Below the pieces are notes generated by a model. That model made no database searches. It saw nothing but the letters and a program-made list of their open reading frames with translations, and had not been told where the DNA came from. The position numbers and the translations under genes are program-made. From contig NZ_FOXM01000011.1 of assembly GCF_900115715.1 (NCBI RefSeq), positions 62,001 through 126,000 of the forward strand: a stretch of 64,000 bases of DNA. Direction: 5' to 3'. Numbering within the stretch: position 1 is the first letter of the stretch; every line of letters starts with the position of its first letter. This DNA comes from Geopseudomonas sagittaria. GTDB taxonomy: Bacteria > Pseudomonadota > Gammaproteobacteria > Pseudomonadales > Pseudomonadaceae. Below are positions 36,884 to 48,330 of the stretch, one piece after another.

Positions 36884-37032
36884 GTCGGGGCTCGGCAGGC
36901 AATGGCCGGCTTTTCGGGCCGGACGGGGGATCAACTTTAATGCATCTGCCCCCGGCTCGACTAACTTGTGTTGAGGGGTTGTGTCGGCAGCGTGAATTGT
37001 TGCGTGCCGCGCGCAGCCGTATCGGCACAGTC

Positions 37033-37056
37033 ATCGGAGCATCGGAGCATCGGAGC
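37033..37056 (+). repeat. Three tandem 8-bp repeats in the gdhB leader
   Basis: ATCGGAGC occurs three times without a gap (37033-37040, 37041-37048, 37049-37056). Each unit contains GGAG, and the third provides the gdhB ribosome-binding site, 7 bases before the ATG at 37063. Copy-number change would shift spare ribosome-loading sites without changing the reading frame. Confidence 0.85.
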
Positions 37057-37062
37057 GTGGTC

Positions 37063-40000
37063 ATGGGCTTTTTCAGCGCAGCGGACCGGGACGACTTCCA
37101 TCGCCAGCTGCAGGTCTTGCTCGAGCGCCAGGTCGGCGAAGCCGGTTTGGCGCAGGTGGCGCTGTTCGCCCGGCAGTTCTTCGCCAGCGTGGCGCTCGAC
37201 GAGCTGGGCGAGCGGCGCCTGGCCGATCTGGCCGGTTGCTGCCTGTCGGCCTGGCGGCTGCTCGGTCGCTTCGATCCGGCGGCCGCCCAGGTGCACCTGT
37301 TCAGTCCCGACTACGAGCGCGACGGCTGGCAGTCGCCGCACAGCGTGCTGCAGGTGCTGCATGCCGACATGCCGTTCCTGGTCGACTCGCTGCAGCTGGA
37401 GCTGCGCCGCCGCGGACACACCATCCACAGCCTGCAGAGCTGCGTGCTCGGCCTGCGCCGCGACGCCCAGGGCGGGCTGCTCGAGCTGCTCGCGCCGGGC
37501 GCGCCGGACACCGGCGCCGGCCGCGAGGCGTTGATCAGCCTGGAAATCGACCGCTGCGCCAGTGCCGGCGAACAGCACATGCTGGTCAAGGCGCTGCACG
37601 AGGTGCTCGCCGAGGTGCGCCTGGCGGTGAGCGACTTTGCGCCGATGCGCGCGCGGGTGGAGGCGCTGCGGGCAAGCCTGGAGCCGGCCTGCGCGGCGGT
37701 AGCGGCGCAGGACTGCGCCGAAGTGCGCGCCTTCCTCGACTGGCTGCTGGACGAGCACTTCACCTTCCTCGGCTACGAGGAGTTCCACGTCGAGGCGCAG
37801 GCCGATTGCAGCGGGCTGATCGTCTACGACGAGGACTCGCTGCTCGGCCTGTCGCGGCGCCTGCGCCACGAACTGCCGGCGGCGCAGCGCTGGGTGTCGC
37901 CACAGGCCCTGGCCTGGCTACGCGCGCCCTGCCTGCTGTCGTTCGCCAAGGCCGACCAGCCGGGGCGGGTGCATCGCGCCGCCTACCCGGACTACGTGTC
38001 GCTGCGCCAGTTCGCCGCCGACGGCCAGCTGCTGCGCGAGTGTCGCTTCATGGGCCTGTATACCTCCACGGTGTACAGCGAGAGTGCGCGGCGCATTCCC
38101 AGCGTGCGCGACAAGGTGGCCGAGGTGATCCGCCGTTCCGGCTTCGATCCGCTCACCCACCTGGGGCGCAGCCTGCACCGGGTGCTCGAGGTGCTGCCGC
38201 GCGACGATCTGTTCCAGACCCCGGTCGAGGAGCTGTGCACCACCGCGGTGGCCATCGTGCAGATCCAGGAGCGCAACCGCCTGCGCTTGTTCCTGCGCCG
38301 CGACCCCTACGGGCATTTCTGCTACTGCCTGGTCTACGTGCCGCGCGAGATCTATTCCACCGAAACCCGCCTGAAGATCGAACGGGTGCTGCGCCAGCGC
38401 CTGGCCGCCAGCGACTGCGAGTTCTGGACCTGGTTCTCCGAGTCGGTGCTGGCGCGCGTGCAGTTCATCCTGCGCGTCGATCCGCATCAGCCGGCGAGCG
38501 TCGACCTGCACCGCCTCGAGCAGGAGGTGATCCAGGCCTGTCGCAGCTGGCAGGACGAGTGCGCCAGCCTGGTGGTGGAAAGCTTCGGCGAGGCCCAGGG
38601 CACCGACCTGCTGGCCAGCTTCGCCGGCGGTTTTCCGGCCGGCTACCGCGAGCGCTTCGAACCGCATCTGGCGGTGGTCGACCTGCGCCATCTGCTCAGT
38701 CTGTCGGCCGAGCGGCCGCTGGTGATGAGTTTCTACCAGCCGTCGCTGCAGCACGATGCGCTGCTGCACTGCAAGATCTACCATGCCGGCGCGCCGCTGC
38801 CGCTGTCGGACCTGCTGCCGATCCTCGAGAACCTCGGCCTGCGGGTGTACGGCGAGTATCCCTTCCGCCTGTGCCGTCAGGACGGCCGCGAGTTCTGGAT
38901 CCACGACTACAGCTTCACCTACGCCGAGGGGCTCAGCGTCGATCTGCAGCAGCTCAACGACACCCTGCAGGACGCCTTCATCCATATCGTCCGCGGCGCG
39001 GCGGAGAATGACGGCTTCAATCGCCTGGTGCTCAACGCCGGCCTGCCCTGGCGCGAGGCGGCGCTGCTGCGCGCCTACGGGCGCTATCTCAAGCAGATCC
39101 GCCTGGGCTTCGATCTCGGCTACATCGCGGCGACCCTGAACAATCACGCCGACATCGCCCGCGAACTGGTGCGCCTGTTCAAGACCCGCTTCTACCTGGC
39201 GCGCAAGCTGTCCGCCGAGGCGCTGGTCGACAAGCAGCAGCGTCTGGAGCAGGCCATCCTCGGTGCCCTGGAGCAGGTCCAGGTGCTCAACGAGGACCGC
39301 ATCCTGCGCCGCTACCTGGAACTGATCCGCGCCACCCTGCGCAGCAACTTCTACCAGAGCGCGGCCGACGGCGGCGCCAAGGACTACTTCAGCTTCAAGC
39401 TCGACCCGCAGCAGATCGCCGAGATGCCGCGGCCGGTGCCGCGCTACGAGATCTTCGTCTACTCGCCCCGGGTCGAGGGCGTGCATCTGCGCGGCGGCAA
39501 GGTGGCGCGCGGCGGCCTGCGCTGGTCGGACCGCGAGGAGGACTACCGCACCGAGGTGCTCGGCCTGGTCAAGGCCCAGCAGGTGAAGAATGCGGTGATC
39601 GTGCCGGTCGGCGCCAAGGGCGGCTTCGTGCCGCGGCGCCTGCCGGCGGGCGGCACGCGCGACGAGATCCAGGCCGAGGCGATCGCCTGCTACCGGCTGT
39701 TCATCAGCGGCCTGCTCGACCTCACCGACAACCTCAAGGACGGCCTGGTGGTGCCGCCGCCGCAGGTGGTGCGCCACGACGACGACGACCCCTACCTGGT
39801 GGTGGCGGCGGACAAGGGTACCGCCAGCTTCTCCGACATCGCCAACGCGCTGGCCGCCGACTACGGCTTCTGGCTCGGCGATGCCTTCGCCTCCGGTGGC
39901 TCGGCCGGCTACGACCACAAGGGCATGGGCATCACCGCGCGCGGCGCCTGGGTCGGCGTGCAGCGGCATTTCCGCGAGCGCGGCATCGACGTGCAGCGCG

Positions 40001-41928
40001 AGCGCATCAGCGTGGTCGGCATCGGCGACATGGCCGGCGACGTGTTCGGCAACGGCCTGCTGCGCTCGGAGCAGCTGCAACTGATCGGCGCCTTCAACCA
40101 CCAGCACATCTTCCTCGATCCCGATCCCGACCCGGCGACCAGCTTCGCCGAGCGCCAGCGCCTGTTCGCGCTGCCGCGTTCGAGCTGGACGGACTACGAC
40201 GCCGCGCTGATCTCGCCCGGCGGCGGGGTGTTTGCGCGCAGCGCCAAGAGCATCGAGATCAGTCCCGAAGTGCGCGCGCGGCTGGCCATCGACGCCGAGC
40301 GGCTGGCGCCCAACGAGCTGATCAGCGCCCTGCTGCGCGCGCCGGTGGACCTGCTGTGGAACGGCGGCATCGGCACCTACGTCAAGTCCAGCCGCGAGAG
40401 CCACATGGAGGTCGGCGACAAGGCCAACGACGCCCTGCGCGTGGACGGTCGCGAGCTGCGCTGCAAGGTGGTGGGCGAGGGCGGCAACCTCGGCCTGACC
40501 CCGCTCGGGCGGGTCGAATACTGCCTGCACGGCGGCGCCTGCAACACCGACTTCATCGACAATGCCGGCGGGGTGACCTGCTCCGACCACGAGGTCAACA
40601 TCAAGATCCTCCTCGGCGAGGTGGTGCGCGCCGGCGAGCTGACCCTGCAGCAGCGCAACACGCTGCTGCGCGAGATGACCGAGGCGGTGGCGACGCTGGT
40701 GCTGACCACCAGCTACCGGCAGGCCCAGGCCCTGTCGCTGGCGCAGCGGCATGCCCGCGGCCGGATCGGCGAGTTCCGCCGGCTGATGCTTGATCTGGAA
40801 AGCCGCGGTCGTCTCGATCGCGCCCTGGAGTTCCTCCCCGCCGACGACGAGCTGAACGCGCGGGCCGCGCAGGGCCAGGCGCTGACCCGCCCGGAGCTGG
40901 CGCTGCTGCTGTCCTACAGCAAGTTCGACCTCAAGGAGTCGTTGCTGCATTCGCTGCTGGTGGACGACGCCTACCTGTGCGAGGAGCTGCACGAGGCCTT
41001 CCCGCCGCCGCTGGTGCAGCGTTTCGTCACGGCCCTGGAGCACCACCGCCTGCGCCGCGAGATCGTCAGCACACGGATCGCCAACGACCTGGTCGATCAC
41101 ATGGGGGTGACCTTCGTGCAGCGCCTCAACGAGTCCACCGGGCTGTCGGCGGCGCACATCGCCGGCGGCTGGGTGGTGGTGCGCGACCTTTTCGACCTGC
41201 CGTACTACTGGCAGCAGATCGAGGCGCTCGACTACCGGGTCGACGCCGAGCTGCAGCTGGGGCTGATGGAGGAGCTGATGCGCCTGGGGCGGCGCGCCAC
41301 CCGCTGGTTGCTGCGCAACCGTCGCAGCGAGCTGGACCTGGCGCGCGACGTCGCGCACTTTGCGCCCTGCGTCAGGGAGCTGACCGCGAACCTCGAGGAG
41401 CTGCTCGAGGGCCCGGCCCGCGAGGCCTGTCAGCTGCGCCGCGAGGAGCTGGCGCAAGCCGGCGTGCCGGCCGAGCTGGCCCGGCGGCTGGCCGGCTGCA
41501 GTCACCTGTACACCCTGCTGCCGATCATCGAGGCGGCCGATGTCACCGGGCAGCCGCCGATGCGCGTGGCCGCCTGCTACTTCGGCGTCGGCGCCGAGCT
41601 GGAACTGGGCTGGTACCTGCAGCAGCTCAACGCCCTGCCGGTGGAGAACAACTGGCAGGCGCTGGCCCGCGAGTCGCTGCGTGACGACCTCGACTGGCAG
41701 CAGCGGGCGATCACCATCGCGGTCCTGCAGATGGCCGACGGGCCGCTGGAAATCGACAACCGCCTGACCCTGTGGCTGGCCCAGAACCAGCCGCTGGTGG
41801 CGCGCTGGCGCAACCTGCTCGCCGAGCTGCGCGCCGCCAGTGCCAGCGACTACGCGGTGTACGCGGTGGCCAACCGCGAACTGCAGGATCTGGCGCAGAG
41901 TACGCAGGCGGGGGCGGGAATCCCGTAG
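37063..41928 (+). CDS. gdhB: NAD-specific glutamate dehydrogenase, large (about 180 kDa) class
   Basis: This 1,621-residue enzyme converts L-glutamate to 2-oxoglutarate and ammonia with NAD. Its length agrees with Pseudomonas GdhB (about 1,620 residues). Long N-terminal regulatory ACT-like regions precede the catalytic core, visible from about residue 800 on: KVARGGLRWSDREEDYRTEV, then KNAVIVPVGAKGGFV (catalytic lysine region), YDHKGMGITARGAW and VVGIGDMAGDVFGNGLL (nucleotide-binding). The ATG at 37063 is chosen because the family begins MxFF and a GGAG lies 7 bases upstream; the frame upstream is open but unlike the family. It is divergent from moxR. A REP pair follows. Confidence 0.96.
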   Translation: MGFFSAADRDDFHRQLQVLLERQVGEAGLAQVALFARQFFASVALDELGERRLADLAGCCLSAWRLLGRFDPAAAQVHLFSPDYERDGWQSPHSVLQVLHADMPFLVDSLQLELRRRGHTIHSLQSCVLGLRRDAQGGLLELLAPGAPDTGAGREALISLEIDRCASAGEQHMLVKALHEVLAEVRLAVSDFAPMRARVEALRASLEPACAAVAAQDCAEVRAFLDWLLDEHFTFLGYEEFHVEAQADCSGLIVYDEDSLLGLSRRLRHELPAAQRWVSPQALAWLRAPCLLSFAKADQPGRVHRAAYPDYVSLRQFAADGQLLRECRFMGLYTSTVYSESARRIPSVRDKVAEVIRRSGFDPLTHLGRSLHRVLEVLPRDDLFQTPVEELCTTAVAIVQIQERNRLRLFLRRDPYGHFCYCLVYVPREIYSTETRLKIERVLRQRLAASDCEFWTWFSESVLARVQFILRVDPHQPASVDLHRLEQEVIQACRSWQDECASLVVESFGEAQGTDLLASFAGGFPAGYRERFEPHLAVVDLRHLLSLSAERPLVMSFYQPSLQHDALLHCKIYHAGAPLPLSDLLPILENLGLRVYGEYPFRLCRQDGREFWIHDYSFTYAEGLSVDLQQLNDTLQDAFIHIVRGAAENDGFNRLVLNAGLPWREAALLRAYGRYLKQIRLGFDLGYIAATLNNHADIARELVRLFKTRFYLARKLSAEALVDKQQRLEQAILGALEQVQVLNEDRILRRYLELIRATLRSNFYQSAADGGAKDYFSFKLDPQQIAEMPRPVPRYEIFVYSPRVEGVHLRGGKVARGGLRWSDREEDYRTEVLGLVKAQQVKNAVIVPVGAKGGFVPRRLPAGGTRDEIQAEAIACYRLFISGLLDLTDNLKDGLVVPPPQVVRHDDDDPYLVVAADKGTASFSDIANALAADYGFWLGDAFASGGSAGYDHKGMGITARGAWVGVQRHFRERGIDVQRERISVVGIGDMAGDVFGNGLLRSEQLQLIGAFNHQHIFLDPDPDPATSFAERQRLFALPRSSWTDYDAALISPGGGVFARSAKSIEISPEVRARLAIDAERLAPNELISALLRAPVDLLWNGGIGTYVKSSRESHMEVGDKANDALRVDGRELRCKVVGEGGNLGLTPLGRVEYCLHGGACNTDFIDNAGGVTCSDHEVNIKILLGEVVRAGELTLQQRNTLLREMTEAVATLVLTTSYRQAQALSLAQRHARGRIGEFRRLMLDLESRGRLDRALEFLPADDELNARAAQGQALTRPELALLLSYSKFDLKESLLHSLLVDDAYLCEELHEAFPPPLVQRFVTALEHHRLRREIVSTRIANDLVDHMGVTFVQRLNESTGLSAAHIAGGWVVVRDLFDLPYYWQQIEALDYRVDAELQLGLMEELMRLGRRATRWLLRNRRSELDLARDVAHFAPCVRELTANLEELLEGPAREACQLRREELAQAGVPAELARRLAGCSHLYTLLPIIEAADVTGQPPMRVAACYFGVGAELELGWYLQQLNALPVENNWQALARESLRDDLDWQQRAITIAVLQMADGPLEIDNRLTLWLAQNQPLVARWRNLLAELRAASASDYAVYAVANRELQDLAQSTQAGAGIP

Positions 41929-41984
41929 GGCGAGAGTGGTTGAAATTGTGCACGGCTGGTGAGAGATTCTGCACGATCGAGGGG

Positions 41985-42096
41985 CGTAGGGTGGGTTAGG
42001 CTGCCGGCCGTAACCCACCGACCGGCCGCCAGGCCGGCAAGGGGATGCCTGGTGGCATCCGTGGCGGGTTACGCCGCGCGGCTAACCCACCCTACG
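41985..42096. repeat. REP pair of a second family (CGTAGGGTGGGTTAG heads)
   Basis: The outer inverted repeat CGTAGGGTGGGTTAG (41985-41999) and its complement (42082-42096) is perfect over 15 bp. Inside the left unit GTGGGTTA pairs with TAACCCAC (42011-42018), and the right unit has the matching GGGTTA...TAACCC hairpin. This is a REPIN-like structure with a GTAG-containing head but a different body from the 19600-19655 element. It fills most of the gdhB to ligase gap. Confidence 0.75.
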
Positions 42097-42138
42097 GGTT
42101 CGTCATGTATCGGTGTCGAGGCGTCAGGGAGGGAAACG

Positions 42139-43482
42139 ATGAAAAGCCCGGAAGAGTTGTTGCAGTTCGCCGAGCGCTTGACGGCGGTCGAGGAGATCGA
42201 GTGCGTGACGCCGGATCTCAACGGTATCCCACGCGGCAAGACGATGACCGTCGAGGCTTTCCTCTCAGGCCGCCGTCTGCAGCTGGCGCGCGGCGTGCTG
42301 CTGCAGTGCCTGATGGGCGGCTATCCGCCGACGCGCTTCTACGGCAGCGATGACGGCGACCTGGCCCTGCGCGCCGATCCGCGGCAGGTGCACATCCTGC
42401 CGTGGAGCGAGCCGCCGCGCGCGCTGGCCATCTGCGATGCGCTGGAAATCGACGGCAGTCCCTGTGCGCTGTCCACCCGCGGCCTGCTGCGCCGGGTGCT
42501 GGAGGACTACGCGGAGCTGGGCCTGACGCCGGTGGTGGCCACCGAGCTGGAGTTCTTCGTCTTCGCCCCCAACCCCGATCCGCGCGAGCCGTTCCAGCCG
42601 CCGCTGGGCCTGGACGGGCGGCGCGAGGTGGGCGCCTCGGCCTTCACCGTCGCCTCCAATCACGGCCTGCGCCCGTTCTTCGCCGAGGTCTACCAGTGCA
42701 TGGCCGCCCTCGGCCTGCCACGCGACACCTTCATGCACGAGATGGGACCCAGCCAGTACGAGATCAACCTGCTGCATGGCGACGCCCTGCAGTTGGCCGA
42801 CCAGACCTTCTTGTTCAAGCACCTGCTGCGCGAGGTGGCGCTCAAGCACGGGCTGATCGTGGTGTGCATGGCCAAGCCGCTGGGCAACGTGCCGGGCAGT
42901 TCGATGCACATCCACCAGAGCCTGGTCGATGCGGACGGCCGCAACGTGTTCAGTGACGCCGAGGGCGAGCCGACGCCGGCCTTTGCCCACTTCATCGCCG
43001 GCCAACAGGCGGCGCTGGCCGACTTCACCCTGCTGCTGGCGCCCAACGTCAACTCGTTCCACCGCCTGGCACACCCCTACGCGTCACCGAACAATGCCTG
43101 CTGGTCCTACGACAACCGCGCCGCCGGCCTGCGCATCCCGGCCAGCGGCCCGGAGGCGCGGCGGGTAGAGAACCGCCTGCCCGGCGCCGACGCCAACCCC
43201 TACCTGGCCCTGGCCGCCAGCCTCGGCGCCGGGCTCTACGGCCTGGTGCAGGGCCTGCAGCCGGCGCCGCCGGCACGCGGCGAGTTCCAGGTGCCCGACG
43301 CCCTGCGCCTGCCCGCCAGCATGAGCGAGGCCGTGCAGCGCCTGCAGCGCAGCACGCTGGCACGCGAGCTGTTCGGCGAGGAGTTCATCGACGGCTATCT
43401 GGCGACCAAGTCCCTGGAGCTGGACAACTTCCTCGAGGAAGTCAGCCCCTGGGAGCGGCGCGTGCTGGCGCCGCAATTGTGA
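42139..43482 (+). CDS. Glutamine synthetase-family ligase (gamma-glutamylpolyamine synthetase-like)
   Basis: This 447-residue enzyme has the type I glutamine synthetase fold. Metal and glutamate residues are visible in VVATELEFFVFAP, EMGPSQYEINLLHGD and MHIHQSL; the ATP-binding region is PNVNSFHRLAHPYASPNN and the C-terminal metal loop is VENRLPGADANPYLALAA. It lacks the adenylylation loop tyrosine context of GlnA and resembles PuuA/PauA enzymes, which join glutamate to putrescine or other amines as the first step of degradation. GGGAGGG precedes the ATG. The following MFS gene is probably linked. The amine substrate is not predictable. Confidence 0.88.
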   Translation: MKSPEELLQFAERLTAVEEIECVTPDLNGIPRGKTMTVEAFLSGRRLQLARGVLLQCLMGGYPPTRFYGSDDGDLALRADPRQVHILPWSEPPRALAICDALEIDGSPCALSTRGLLRRVLEDYAELGLTPVVATELEFFVFAPNPDPREPFQPPLGLDGRREVGASAFTVASNHGLRPFFAEVYQCMAALGLPRDTFMHEMGPSQYEINLLHGDALQLADQTFLFKHLLREVALKHGLIVVCMAKPLGNVPGSSMHIHQSLVDADGRNVFSDAEGEPTPAFAHFIAGQQAALADFTLLLAPNVNSFHRLAHPYASPNNACWSYDNRAAGLRIPASGPEARRVENRLPGADANPYLALAASLGAGLYGLVQGLQPAPPARGEFQVPDALRLPASMSEAVQRLQRSTLARELFGEEFIDGYLATKSLELDNFLEEVSPWERRVLAPQL

Positions 43483-43606: not shown

Positions 43607-45007
43607 ATGCCCCGTTCGATGTTCGCCTTTCCCTCGCTGTACACCGCGACCCTGCTGATGCTGCTCGGCTCCGGCCTGCTCACCACCTACCTGGCCCTGC
43701 GCCTGGCCGCCGAGGGTGCGGCCAGCCAGGCCGGCTGGCTGATGGCGGCCCACTACGCCGGGCTGGTGCTGGGCGGCAAGTTCGGTCATCGGCTGATCGC
43801 CCAGGTCGGTCACGTGCGCGCCTACGTCGCCGCCGGCGGCGTGGTGACCGCCGCGGTGATCGCCCATGGCCTGCTCGAATGGATCGGCGCCTGGCTGCCG
43901 CTGCGCTTTCTGATCGGCCTGAGCATGATGTGCCAGTTCATGGTGGTGGAGAGCTGGCTCAACGAGCGGGCCGAGCCGCGCAAGCGCGGTCGGGTGTTCT
44001 CGATGTACATGACGGCCAGCTACCTGGGCCTTGCGCTCGGTCAGCTGGTGCTGGTGCTGCGCCCCGGCCTCGACGTGCAGCCCCTGCTGATGGTGGCGCT
44101 GTGCTTCGCGCTGTGTCTGGTGCCGGTGGCCACCACCCGTAGTATCCACCCCGCGCCGCTCCATCCGGCGCCGCTGGAGCCGCGCTTCTTCCTGCGCCGG
44201 GTGCCGCAGTCGCTGACCACGGTGGCCATGGCCGGCCTGGCGATCGGCGCCTTCTACGGTCTGGGGCCGATCTACGCCCAGGCCCAGGGGCTGGATACCC
44301 GCGAGGTCGGTCTGTTCATGACCGTCTGCGTGTTCGCCGGACTGGTGGTGCAGGCGCCGCTCGGCCGTCTGTCAGACCGCTTCGATCGCAGCCTGCTGAT
44401 CCGCCTGATCGCAGTGGCCCTGGTGCTCAGCGTGCTGCCGCTGGGGCTGCTGCCCCGGCCGCCGCTGCCGGTGATGCTGGTCGTGGGCTTCGTCGTCAGC
44501 CTGCTGCTGTTCGCCCTCTATCCGCTGGCGGTGGCGCTGTCCAACGACCACGTCGAGCAGGAGCGCCGCGTCGCCCTGTCGGCGATGCTGCTGGTGGTGT
44601 TCGGCGTCGGCGCCTGCCTCGGCCCGCTACTGGCCGGCGAGCTGATGAGCCGCGGCGTGCCCCGCTTGCTGTACCTGTTCATCGGTGGCTGCGCGCTGGT
44701 GCTGGTCTGGCGGGTGCGCCCGCAGGACGTGCGCGGCCTGCACCGGGTCGACGAGGCGCCGCTCGGGCACGTCGCCGTGCCGGTGGCGATGGCCGGCTCG
44801 CCGCTGTCGGTGGCCCTCGACCCGCGCGTCGACGAGGCGGTGGTGCAGGAGCAGATGCAGGGCGAGGCGTTTACGGACGGCGCAGGAGGGCAGCCTGACG
44901 CCGATGCCGATGCCGAGCCCACCGCGGCGGATGCGGTGGACGCTGCCGACGGCGATGCCGAGCAGCCCGGACCATTGCCTGCGGACGGCTTGCGAGGTAC
45001 AGAATAG
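43607..45007 (+). CDS. MFS transporter with acidic C-terminal tail
   Basis: This 466-residue protein has 12 predicted transmembrane helices (about residues 8-372) of the major facilitator superfamily, in the YcaD-like group: MCQFMVVESWLNERAEPRKRGRVFSMYM is characteristic of it. After the last helix come about 95 residues. The final 40 are very rich in Asp, Ala and Glu (for example DADADAEPTAADAVDAADGD) and probably disordered in the cytoplasm. It follows the ligase gene by 124 bases. GGAGG is only 4 bases before the ATG. The substrate is unknown. Confidence 0.87.
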   Translation: MPRSMFAFPSLYTATLLMLLGSGLLTTYLALRLAAEGAASQAGWLMAAHYAGLVLGGKFGHRLIAQVGHVRAYVAAGGVVTAAVIAHGLLEWIGAWLPLRFLIGLSMMCQFMVVESWLNERAEPRKRGRVFSMYMTASYLGLALGQLVLVLRPGLDVQPLLMVALCFALCLVPVATTRSIHPAPLHPAPLEPRFFLRRVPQSLTTVAMAGLAIGAFYGLGPIYAQAQGLDTREVGLFMTVCVFAGLVVQAPLGRLSDRFDRSLLIRLIAVALVLSVLPLGLLPRPPLPVMLVVGFVVSLLLFALYPLAVALSNDHVEQERRVALSAMLLVVFGVGACLGPLLAGELMSRGVPRLLYLFIGGCALVLVWRVRPQDVRGLHRVDEAPLGHVAVPVAMAGSPLSVALDPRVDEAVVQEQMQGEAFTDGAGGQPDADADAEPTAADAVDAADGDAEQPGPLPADGLRGTE

Positions 45008-45044
45008 AGCGGCTGGCGCGGGGTGCTTAATCTACGTCATTAAA

Positions 45045-45073
45045 TTGACACGCCTCCGGAATTTGGCTTTACT
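45045..45073 (+). promoter_or_regulatory. Likely sigma-70 promoter of the fleQ-like/fleN-like operon
   Basis: TTGACA (45045-45050), a 17-base spacer and TTTACT (45068-45073, four matches to TATAAT) form a good vegetative promoter in an AT-rich pocket. The start would be near 45080, about 80 bases before the coding region, so the operon appears to be expressed by the housekeeping factor. Confidence 0.55.
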
Positions 45074-45159: not shown

Positions 45160-46632
45160 ATGTGGCGTGAATCCCGAATTCTGCTGATCGACGACAACCT
45201 GCAACGTCGCCACGACCTGGCGGTCATCTTCGACTTTCTCGGCGAGCCCTGCAGCAGTTGCGGCAGCGGCGACTGCGCCGCCGTGCTGGAAGCGCTGGAG
45301 TCCCGCCAGCTGTCCTGCGTGCTGCTCGGCCAGGTCGACAGCAAGGGCGGCGCCCCGCGCCTGCTCAAGCAGCTGGGCACGCAGACGGAGAATCTGCCGC
45401 TGCTGCTGCTTGGCGAGCAGGCCACGGCCGACTGGCCGGAGGCGTTGCGCCGCCGCGTGCTGGCGCGCCTCGACATGCCGCCGAGCTACAACCAGCTGCT
45501 CGACTCGCTGCATCGCGCCCAGGTCTACCAGCAGGTGTTCGACGTCGCCCGCGAGCGGGGGCTGCAGCGCGAGTCCAACCTGTTCCGCAGTCTGGTCGGT
45601 ACCAGCCGGGTGATCCTCCAGGTGCGTCAGCAGATGCAGCAGGTGGCCGGCACCGAGGCGGGCGTGTTGCTGCTCGGCGAGCCCGGCACCGGCAAGGAGG
45701 TGGTGGCGCGCAACCTGCATTACCACTCCAGTCGCCGCGAGTTCCCGTTCGTGCCGTTCAGTTGCACGGCGATCGCCCCCGAGCTGGTGGAGAGCGAGCT
45801 GTTCGGCTACGAGCCCGGCGCCTTCGTCGGCGCCATCTCCACCCACAAGGGGCGCCTCGAGCTGGCGGCGGGGGGCACGCTGTACATCGACGAGGTGGCC
45901 GACCTGCCGGCGGAGCTGCAGGTGCGCCTGCTGCGTGTGCTGCAGGAGGGACGCTTCAAGCGCCTGGGCAGCGAGGAAGAGCATCCGATCGACGTGCGGG
46001 TGATCGCGGCCAGCCGGCACGACCTGGACCAGCGCGTGGCCGAGGGCAGTCTGCGCGACGATCTCTACTACAGCCTCAACCAGTTCTCCATCGAGCTGCC
46101 GCCACTGCGCGAGCGGATCGAGGATATCCCGCTGCTGATCAACGAGCTGATCGCCCGCCTGGAGCATGAGAAGCGCGGCTCGATCCGCTTCAGCTCGGCG
46201 GCCCTGATGTCGTTGTGCCGCCACGACTGGCGCGGCAACGTGCGCGAGCTGGCCAATCTGATCGAGCGCCTGGCGATCATGCACCCCTACGGCGTGATCG
46301 GCGTCGCCGAGCTGCCGAAGAAGTTTCGCCATATCGACGACGAGACCGCGCAGCAGAGCGACGGCGCCTATGGCGCGGTCGCCGAGTCACGGGGGCTGGC
46401 GGAAGGCACCCTGCCGGGGCTGGATGTGCCGGCGCTGCTGCCGGTCGGTGGCCTGGATCTCAAGGACTACCTGAACAGCCTCGAGCGCTCGCTGATCCAG
46501 CAGGCGCTGGACGATGCCGGTGGCGTGGTGGCGCGCGCCGCCGAACACCTGCGGGTGCGACGTACCACGCTGGTGGAGAAGATGCGCAAGTACGGCATGG
46601 GCCGGCGCGACGACGAGGAAGGGGAACTCTAG
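45160..46632 (+). CDS. FleQ paralogue with altered sigma-54 and arginine-finger motifs
   Basis: This 490-residue protein is collinear with FleQ, the c-di-GMP-responsive master regulator of flagella and exopolysaccharide in Pseudomonas: N-terminal FleQ domain (1-135), AAA+ domain (about 140-375) and Fis-type HTH (about 440-480). Residues tied to c-di-GMP binding are kept: LFRS at 141-144, and Arg184-Asn185 just after Walker A (GEPGTGKE, 173-180). Walker B Asp244-Glu245 is intact. However, the sigma-54 contact loop GAFTGA is GAFVGA (220-225), and of the two usual arginine-finger positions Arg299 remains but the second is Ser305. It probably binds DNA and c-di-GMP without activating sigma-54. 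It is co-transcribed with a FleN paralogue. Confidence 0.9.
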
Positions 46633-47507
46633 TGGGCTGCCAGTCTGTGGGAGCGCGTGTGGGTCTGGCCAAGGCGCTGCCCAAGCCCGTGCAGGTGATC
46701 GCCATCGCCAGCGGCAAGGGCGGCGTCGGCAAGACCCAGGCGGCGATCAACCTCGCCGGGGCGCTGGCGGCGCGCGGGCGGCGGGTGATGCTGCTGGATG
46801 CCAGCTTTGCCCTGCCCAACGTCGATACCGCGCTCGGCCTGACCCCGCGCTACACGCTGCAGGACGTCCTGGCCGGGCGCTGCCGCCTGGCCGATACGCT
46901 GCTGAACGGGCCGGGCGGCGTGCAGGTGATCGCCGGTTCGACCGCGCCCGGCGCGGTGGCCGAGCCGAGCGCGCGGCAACTGGCTGGCCTGATCCGCGCC
47001 TTCAGCGAGCTGGCGGAGCTGCCGGATGTGCTGCTGATCGACACCGCGCCGGGCATCGGTCTCGGCGTGTCGAGCATGCTGCAGGCGGCCAGCGAGGCGC
47101 TGCTGGTGGTCAACGACGAGCCGGCTGCCCAGGCCGATGCACTGGTCCTGCTGCGGCGCCTGAACGAGCAATACGGCATGACCCGTTTCCGCCTGCTGGT
47201 CAGCATGACCTTCGCCCAGCAGGAAGGCCGGGCGCTGCACGAGCGCCTGCTGCGTCTCACCGAGCCGCTGGCCGGGGTGGTGCTGGACTATGTCGGCGCG
47301 ATCCCCTTCGACGACGCCCTGCGCCGCGCGGTGCAGCGCCAGCGTCCGCTGCTCGAGGTGTTGCCGCGCAGCCGCGCCGCCCTGGCCTTCGCGGCCCTGG
47401 CCGAGAAGGTCGACGGCTGGCCGCTGCCGGCCAACCCGCGCGGCCACCTGGAGTTCTTCGTCGAGCAGATGATCGCCGCACAGGCGATGCCGCGGCTCGG
47501 CGGCTGA
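46632..47507 (+). CDS. FleN paralogue (MinD/ParA-type ATPase) lacking the switch I aspartate
   Basis: This 291-residue protein is close to FleN, the ATPase that restrains FleQ and sets flagellar number. The deviant Walker A is SGKGGVGKT (27-35; Lys29 and Lys34 present) and the C-terminal [18 protein letters not shown] matches FleN. In MinD and FleN the segment after strand 2 reads D-x-D; here it is DAS, so Asp56 is present but the second, hydrolysis-related Asp is Ser58. ATP binding is expected, hydrolysis is doubtful. Translation starts at a GTG sharing its first base with the TAG of the fleQ-like gene, preceded by GGAAGGGGA, so the two are tightly coupled. Confidence 0.88.
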
Positions 47508-47554: not shown

Positions 47555-47607
47555 AGGACCGTCACAAGCTGTCGAAAATACGATCTCCGGCCCTCTGGGA
47601 CGCCATG

Positions 47608-47613
47608 TATAAT
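47608..47613 (+). promoter_or_regulatory. -10 element of the ccm operon promoter
   Basis: A perfect TATAAT lies 70 bases before the ccmA start. No convincing -35 hexamer is seen 17-18 bases upstream, which would suit an activator-dependent promoter. Confidence 0.5.
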
Positions 47614-47682
47614 GCGCCCCGACCTGGCTGGGGCATGCCCCGGTCGCCGCTTTCGATTGCTCCGCCGACGGGTAGCCATGCA

Positions 47683-48330
47683 GTGACCAGTCCCTTTCTC
47701 GAAGCTGTTGCGCTCGCCTGCGAGCGGGACCTGCGCATGCTGTTCGAGCGGCTCGACTTCGCCCTGCACGCCGGCGAGATGCTGCAGATCGCCGGCCCCA
47801 ACGGCAGCGGCAAGACCAGTCTGCTGCGCCTGCTGGCCGGGCTGATGCAGCCCACCGAAGGCGAGATCCGCCTGGCCGGCAAGCCGCTGGCCGAGCAGCG
47901 AGACGAGCTGACCCGCAACCTGCTGTGGGTCGGCCATGCCGCCGGCATCAAGGGCCTGCTCAGTCCCGAGGAGAACCTCGCCTGGCTGTGCGCCCTGCAT
48001 ACCGCCGAAAGCCGCGAGGCGATCTGGCAGGCGCTGGCCGCGGTCGGCCTGCGCGGCTTCGAGGACGTGCCCTGCCATACCCTGTCCGCCGGCCAGCAGC
48101 GCCGCGTGGCGCTGGCGCGCCTGTACCTGGATGCGCCGCCGCTGTGGGTCCTCGACGAACCCTTCACCGCCCTCGACAAGCACGGCGTGGCCCAGCTCGA
48201 GGAGCACCTGGCCCGCCACTGCGAGCAGGGCGGCATGGTGGTGCTGACTACCCACCACACGCTGACCCGCAAGCCGGCCGGCTACCGCGAGCTGGACCTG
48301 GCCCAGGCCGGGAGCACCGCCGATGAGTAA
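47683..48330 (+). CDS. ccmA: Cytochrome c biogenesis ATP-binding protein CcmA
   Basis: This 215-residue ABC ATPase has Walker [10 protein letters not shown], signature [14 protein letters not shown], Walker [13 protein letters not shown] and the H-loop in TTHHTL. With CcmB it powers release of the holo-CcmE heme chaperone from CcmC and CcmD. The protein begins [15 protein letters not shown], so the GTG at 47683 is the start. It lies inside ATGCAGTGA, so a two-codon ATG-CAG-TGA frame overlaps the initiation codon. It is first in a nine-gene operon and overlaps ccmB by 8 bases. Confidence 0.93.

Follow-up and report, generated by a model that had tools for sequence, protein, structure and literature searches.

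FleQ is a dual regulator, which combines sigma54-dependent activation of flagellar genes with c-di-GMP gating of biofilm genes. The fleQ gene of the window (the whole stretch of 64,000 nucleotides that was analyzed) encodes a FleQ without the threonine that contacts sigma54, and the FleN encoded directly behind it lacks the catalytic aspartate. Comparisons of residues, locus, and gene content across the genus make it likely that the pair was retained as a sigma54-independent, c-di-GMP-responsive repressor after loss of the FleQ-driven polar flagellum. The first-pass annotation had proposed that the sigma54-contacting residue was lost while the c-di-GMP-, ATP-, and DNA-binding features were kept, and the comparison of residues supports this part of it.

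The fleQ gene and its locus

The following features of the window are referred to below:
41959..43482, plus strand: glutamine synthetase-like gene, also found 5′ of fleQ in G001, G003, G004, G006, and the Azotobacter-like G081
43607..45007, plus strand: MFS transporter-like gene, located 5′ of fleQ (none seen in G003)
45036..45049, plus strand: GTCATTAAATTGAC, the best match to the FleQ-box pattern in the whole genome, 124 bp 5′ of fleQ
45160..46632, plus strand: fleQ, 490 aa, the sole FleQ found in the genome; FleQ receiver domain 6-122, AAA+ domain 145-312, lid 317-399, Fis-type HTH 440-478
45817..45834, plus strand: fleQ codons 220-225, GAFVGA (canonical GAFTGA); with T223V the sigma54-contacting threonine is gone
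46054..46056, plus strand: fleQ codon R299, the classical arginine finger (R300xDL in P. aeruginosa), kept
46072..46074, plus strand: fleQ codon S305, canonically the second Arg of LYYR; 3 of the 8 genus members lack this Arg
46540..46593, plus strand: core of the fleQ HTH; none of the 30 canonical-invariant positions between 436 and 490 is altered in all 8 genus members
46632..47507, plus strand: fleN, a MinD-type ATPase, FleN orthologue
46803..46805, plus strand: FleN codon 58, AGC (Ser), equivalent to the catalytic D48 of P. aeruginosa FleN
47605..48330, plus strand: ccmA, directly 3′ of fleN; in the canonical G010, its place is behind the chemotaxis genes

The product of 45160-46632 has the receiver, AAA+, and Fis HTH domains of a FleQ orthologue, with Pfam matches to PF06490 (94 bits), PF00158 (Sigma54_activat), the AAA lid, and PF02954 (Fis HTH). 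Its best solved relative is full-length P. aeruginosa FleQ (8p53, E 1.4e-215), and its identity to the named sequence rows outside the genus (from a list limited to 80, found through patterns of the fleQ product) is 63-68%. The features listed in the first-pass annotation, namely LFRS (141-144), Walker A K179, R184-N185, GAFVGA (220-225), D244-E245, and S305, were all present.

A search of the genome (4.6 Mb, 99.77% complete) yielded one FleQ. The remaining listed matches to the fleQ product had identities of 40-45%, mostly in the AAA+ part, and one of them, on contig C29 (40% identity), was weakly above the FleQ Pfam cut-off, with 26.7 bits compared to 97.7 bits for fleQ. The C29 protein is taken as an NtrC-type regulator, and the gene at 45160-46632 as the FleQ orthologue, not a paralogue. 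The first-pass annotation had proposed a paralogue that would compete with normal FleQ or poison mixed hexamers. The residue pattern would fit a non-activating FleQ, but a dominant-negative role needs a second, normal FleQ, and none was found in the genome; in addition, the flagellar cluster that was found is of the FlhDC type. The paralogue and competitor readings are rejected on the basis of the genome search, and we give a dominant-negative function next to no probability.

The locus was compared with that of canonical relatives. In G010, the queried genes form one contiguous stretch with the order fliC-fliD-fliS-fleQ-fleS-fleR-fliI-fliL-fliM-fliN-fliP-fliR-flhB-flhA-flhF, followed by fleN-cheY-cheZ-cheA-cheB-motB-like-cheW-ccmA-ccmB. 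In the window's genus, the locus is reduced to fleQ-fleN-ccmA and the fli/flh/che block is absent there, so that the order is that of G010 minus the intervening flagellar genes. fleN directly follows fleQ in all 8 genus members, and ccmA is next in the 7 of 7 members examined (G000-G006). The first possible start of fleN, a GTG, overlaps the stop codon of fleQ; this start is provisional, as the alignment of most relatives begins near residue 17. In 11 canonical genomes (P. aeruginosa itself not among them), fleQ and fleN are at least 20 kb apart, the distance being 20.5-23.2 kb in nine and 62-68 kb in G012 and G098. In G016 and G021, fleN is on the opposite side of fleQ.

Three further genomes (G023, G070, G081) are called Azotobacter-like here. 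Their FleQ proteins (L028, L138, L137) have 501 aa, which is the length of A. vinelandii FleQ (PMC12022260), and their genus is therefore taken to be Azotobacter. In none of them could a fleN be located behind fleQ. In G081, fleN adjoins ccmA, at a distance of about 354 kb from fleQ; the latter is preceded by a glutamine synthetase-like gene with 70.6% identity to that of the window. In the FleQ tree, the two genera are sisters (97/94, with the bootstrap not settled and both stems long). The same sisters were recovered in a glutamate dehydrogenase tree without G003, with an SH-aLRT of 90, which falls short of the 95 set as a mark by the tool. The simplest reading would be that the common ancestor of both genera lost its FleQ-type flagellar genes once. 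The window also contains a giant ORF (36940-41925), which we take to encode an NAD-specific glutamate dehydrogenase-like protein; it matched no NCBIfam model, and no match to it was found in the 3.2 Mb genome of G003 at E <= 1e-100.

Residues changed and kept in FleQ and FleN

The GAFTGA threonine was absent from all 8 genomes of the genus sample (G000-G007), with valine in two and proline in six. The motif reads GAFVGA in G000, the genome of the window, and G005, GAFPGA in G001, G002, and G003, and GALPGA in G004, G006, and G007. Outside the genus and the Azotobacter-like genomes, GAFTGA was found in 102 of 103 rows (102 distinct sequences, L034-L036 being left out as copies of genus members and the named rows coming from the list limited to 80), and GAFSGA in L054. 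With V223 at position 4 of the motif, the window protein lacks the Thr or Ser of a functional sigma54 enhancer-binding protein. V223 recurs in G005, the FleQ of which is 95% identical to that of the window, and because all 8 genomes are also without Thr, a sequencing error is an unlikely cause of T223V. The first-pass annotation had asked for the conservation of V223 and S305 across orthologues; the loss of the threonine turned out to be genus-wide and not scattered, with Val itself in 2 of 8.

Two further residues, H217 and K219, have changed as well in every one of the 8 genomes. A single substitution within GAFTGA lowers activity and in most cases eliminates it, particularly at F and T (PMC3162934, PMC2941729), and where enhancer-binding proteins deviate from GAFTGA, the Thr is preferentially replaced by proline (PMC3162934). 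Both the usual effect of single changes and the replacement of Thr by Val or Pro together with the changes at H217 and K219 speak against a compensated L1 loop through which sigma54 activation persists. We judge such a compensation to be very unlikely, even though the mapped ATPase residues, the classical arginine finger, and sensor II are intact.

The claim that the arginine finger is lost stood only in part. R300, within R300xDL, serves as the classical finger of FleQ, and the sensor II residue R363 likely takes over the polarization of the bond (PMC10723142). With a numbering offset of 1, R300 corresponds to R299 and R363 to R362, and both are present in all 8 genomes, which rules out a complete loss of the arginine finger. 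The second arginine (P. aeruginosa position 306; S305 in the window) is indeed missing from three of the 8 genomes, being Ser in G000 and G005 and Leu in G001, and is kept in the other five. Judged by these residues, the group is defined by the loss of Thr, not by the loss of Arg. The complete set of Walker A/B, finger, and sensor II residues (K179, E180, D244, E245, R299, R362) is kept in 8 of 8.

In P. aeruginosa FleQ, we take N186 to be a c-di-GMP residue and D245 to be an ATP residue. The published c-di-GMP residues are R138, R144, R151, R185, R334, and E330, the ATP residues are K180, E181, E246, R260, R300, D302, and R363, and R344 and I374 are at the interface (PMC10723142). The equivalents R137, R143, R150, R184, N185, E329, and R333 are kept in all 8 genus members, and binding of c-di-GMP is predicted for them. 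Likewise, all 8 keep the mapped ATP residues (with D245) as well as R344 and I374 at the interface (P. aeruginosa numbering). Glu332 of the same paper is unmappable, since that position is not a Glu in the solved FleQ sequence under this numbering.

The changes are not spread evenly over the protein. Of the 254 FleQ positions counted as canonical-invariant, with a conservation of at least 98% across 98 canonical rows, 30 are altered in all 8 genus members, T223 among them. Changes in all 8 affect 19 of 84 invariant positions in 205-312 versus 2 of 85 in the lid and HTH (Fisher p 4e-5), and changes in any member 38 of 84 versus 5 of 85 (p 2e-9); the blocks were picked after inspection of the regional table and the rows share ancestry, and the p values therefore describe concentration, not independent events. 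The NG86 dN/dS of the whole fleQ gene was 0.15-0.35 in seven genus pairs, and that of the HTH 0-0.16. For the 31-codon L1 stretch, values of 0.52-0.91 were obtained in four deeper genus pairs and of 0.10-0.16 in three closer ones, while in four canonical pairs L1 had 0-0.07 and the whole gene 0.04-0.09. The linker 396-435 (0.38-1.05) equals or exceeds L1 in most genus pairs, and the receiver domain reaches 0.27-0.40. In summary, fleQ is under purifying selection that is weaker than in canonical relatives, and L1 is among the relaxed or re-shaped parts.

The partner protein has the deviant Walker A motif KGGVGKT of a FleN orthologue, and its best PDB match is FleN (E 2e-92). It is 50-57% identical to FleN from outside the genus, and a single FleN match per genome (E <= 1e-25) was found in 29 of 30 genomes. 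The catalytic aspartate is missing throughout the genus, the D48 position being Ser in seven members and Asn in one (G004). All 18 canonical rows and all 3 Azotobacter-like genomes have an Asp, as does wild-type FleN in PDB 5j1j, whereas the D48A chains have Ala. The D48A variant of FleN binds ATP, is hydrolysis-incompetent, and was used for trapping the sandwich dimer (PMC10723142). FleN dN/dS was 0.15-0.51 in six genus pairs versus 0.02-0.09 in two canonical pairs, and 36 of 145 canonical-invariant FleN positions, including D48, are altered in all 8 genus members. Because FleN evolves fast and so many invariant positions have changed, the loss of D48 may be relaxation.

These rates raise the possibility of a slow decay, in which FleQ and FleN are jobless leftovers that drift towards pseudogenes after the flagellar switch. 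The high dN/dS values of L1 in the deeper pairs, of the linker, and of FleN, the changed invariant positions of the latter, and the small number of FleQ boxes (see below) would fit such a decay. However, all 8 genomes have both ORFs intact and next to each other, the HTH, the lid, and the mapped c-di-GMP residues are conserved, the dN/dS of the whole fleQ remains low, and the two genes have outlasted the flagellar genes by which they are separated and flanked in the canonical G010. We therefore regard decay as improbable.

Flagellar systems and candidate FleQ boxes

The setting of a Pseudomonas-type master regulator of a polar flagellum, with FleS and with flagellar genes at the locus, was not found: there was no FleS match, FlhDC is present, and no flagellar gene lies between fleQ, fleN, and ccmA. 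With FleS of P. panipatensis (L040) as a query and a cut-off of E <= 1e-40, FleS was found in 16 of 30 genomes, but in none of the 8 genus members and none of the 3 Azotobacter-like genomes. Among 398 genomes of the family, FlhC was present in 13, namely 7 of the 8 genus members, the 3 Azotobacter-like genomes, G374, and, as weak matches, G016 and G098. The sole genus member without an FlhC match is G001, although it shares the loss of Thr. In G000, a flagellar cluster on contig C34, which differs from the contig of fleQ, encodes FlhD, FlhC, FlhF, and FlhA. In this cluster, an FlhF-like ORF of 789 aa (C34:380420-382789; L126:420-2786) is followed by an unnamed 175-aa ORF.

The loss of FleS does not by itself predict the loss of Thr, because G016, G009, and G013 have no FleS match at E <= 1e-40 and retain GAFTGA. 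One of them, the small-genome relative G009 (L139), has a GAFTGA FleQ and neither a FleN match (E <= 1e-25) nor a FleS match. G374 has FlhC, FleS, and GAFTGA together, as expected of a two-system strain like F113. In the genus clade, the loss of Thr accompanies the apparent loss of the FleQ-driven flagellar system.

We also searched for FleQ boxes. The candidate box upstream of fleQ, GTCATTAAATTGAC, hints at autoregulation, but a similar candidate box precedes many canonical fleQ genes. TTGACA-17-TTTACT was read by eye upstream of fleQ, and the TTGAC within the candidate box may simply be part of a promoter; the promoter scan called no sigma70 promoter there. With up to 2 mismatches, 6 FleQ-box-like sites were found in G000 versus 3 for a reversed-pattern control, and the 8 genomes together had 32 sites versus 18. 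The fleQ promoter accounts for 4 of these 32 sites, as it reaches 2 or fewer mismatches in only 4 of the 8 genomes. Inspection of the context of seven sites (6 in G000 and 1 in G005) revealed no convincing target nearby; one candidate site, on contig C44, lies between genes that resemble a polysaccharide cluster. Over the 8 genomes, no FleQ-box regulon was found beyond the possible site at the fleQ promoter.

A weak FleQ-box-like site is located 365-368 bp 5′ of flhD in G000 (3 mismatches; L121:801) and G005 (2 mismatches; L120:798). In four other FlhC-positive genus members, the region 5′ of flhC contains no box with 4 or fewer mismatches, and in G003 a site with 4 mismatches is found at another position. 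A 3-mismatch match was obtained in 10 of 200 shuffles of 1500 bp. The site upstream of flhD, which is near this chance level, might connect FleQ with the new flagellar master operon.

A proposed c-di-GMP-released repressor pair

In the scenario that we consider likely, the lineage would have lost the FleQ-driven polar flagellum and taken up an FlhDC-headed flagellar cluster. FleQ, freed from sigma54 flagellar promoters, could then have lost the GAFTGA threonine and nearby L1-loop residues, and FleN of this genus its catalytic aspartate. FleN-bound FleQ would sit on FleQ boxes and block or bend promoters, and binding of c-di-GMP to FleQ would relieve the repression. The targets would most likely be exopolysaccharide genes and perhaps the promoter of fleQ itself. 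If the behavior of D48A holds for the Ser and Asn variants, FleN would stay ATP-bound and the FleQ ATPase inhibited, leaving c-di-GMP as the switch. The analysis itself establishes gene content, synteny, residue conservation, and the selection pattern; the lack of sigma54 activation, the ATP-locked FleN dimer, the c-di-GMP-released repression, and the target genes are inferred. It is quite conceivable, albeit tentative, that FleQ and FleN were stripped in step, FleQ losing its engagement of sigma54 and FleN its ATP hydrolysis, and that the pair is frozen in the FleN-dimer-bound repressor state, known from the laboratory trapping with FleN D48A, with c-di-GMP as the sole off-switch.

A repressor function is proposed because work on FleQ of A. 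vinelandii, in the sister lineage (if the genus of G023, G070, and G081 is Azotobacter), supports it. In this species, inactivation of fleQ leaves flagella and motility wild-type-like, whereas inactivation of flhC abolishes both (PMC2885672). A. vinelandii FleQ binds and represses algD, and deletion of fleN also leads to overproduction of alginate; the effect of c-di-GMP on algD is only partly mediated by FleQ (PMC12022260). The likeness includes FlhDC flagella, the apparent lack of fleRS, and fleQ and fleN genes that are unlinked to flagellar genes, and an analogous role to that of this c-di-GMP-linked repressor of an exopolysaccharide gene is proposed for the window FleQ. The Azotobacter-like genomes differ in that they have GAFSGA together with the Walker B change D244E, a FleN with the Asp kept, and no fleN that could be found behind fleQ, while the window's genus has Val or Pro in place of Thr, has lost D48 of FleN, and has fleQ and fleN as a tight pair. 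By its residues, the window FleQ is more strongly stripped than A. vinelandii FleQ. PMC12022260 calls the RpoN-interaction motif and the AAA+ active sites conserved, as against GAFSGA and D244E in the Azotobacter-like FleQ.

The direct repression of algD in the sister lineage also counts against a FleQ that has mainly become a sigma70-type activator at high c-di-GMP, similar to VpsR. TyrR, DhaR, HupR, and VpsR, which have no GAFTGA, do not use sigma54 or are believed not to use it (PMC3162934, PMC10274813), and P. aeruginosa FleQ up-regulates pel at high c-di-GMP (PMC12022260). Activation as the main function seems unlikely to us, but it deserves more weight than the other alternatives, and it is compatible with the proposed repressor, as the two are not mutually exclusive. 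VpsR of Vibrio cholerae, TyrR, DhaR, HupR, and NtrC of Rhodobacter and Caulobacter share with the window FleQ an enhancer-binding fold without sigma54 contact, and c-di-GMP is also sensed by VpsR (according to the title of a paper cited in PMC10274813). They differ in that they are not FleQ and have deletions or substitutions in L1, and the cited descriptions mention no FleN partner.

P. aeruginosa FleQ and FleN are orthologous to the window pair and share the mapped c-di-GMP, ATPase, and HTH residues and the partnership with FleN; the P. aeruginosa proteins differ in that FleQ carries GAFTGA and drives the sigma54 flagellar genes and FleN has D48. The second flagellum of Pseudomonas fluorescens F113 is similar in that a pseudomonad has FlhDC-headed flagellar genes, but F113 also kept the canonical FleQ system (PMC5031763), and G374 likewise has FleS and GAFTGA. 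Lysobacter was dropped as a precedent, as the respective work expresses a Xanthomonas FleQ in a species whose own FleQ has been lost (PMC9927559).

Several observations count against the proposed repressor. The ATPase residues are kept, although a pure repressor may not need them; furthermore, no regulon was found, L1 is not uniquely fast, and G001 lost the Thr and has no FlhC match. The possible relaxation of FleN, the genomes that keep GAFTGA without a FleS match, and the partial role of FleQ in the c-di-GMP effect on A. vinelandii algD weigh in the same direction.

Enhancer-binding proteins that lack GAFTGA and use sigma70 are already known (PMC3162934, PMC10274813), and so is the split between FlhDC and FleQ in Azotobacter. 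Among the full-text matches listed (titles and openings of abstracts, with few subscription journals covered), no paper on a natural FleQ without the GAFTGA threonine or on a natural FleN without D48 was found.

Taken together, the window FleQ offers a natural experiment on the separation of the two jobs of one regulator. A lineage in which the flagellar job is apparently gone and the c-di-GMP residues are untouched shows which residues each job of FleQ needs, and the loss of the catalytic Asp bears on whether ATP turnover by FleN serves only the flagellar arm. An annotation as FleQ implies neither flagellar control nor sigma54 dependence. If the proposed reading is true, the pair would be a natural separation-of-function FleQ-FleN switch, brought into one operon by the loss of the flagellar genes between them.
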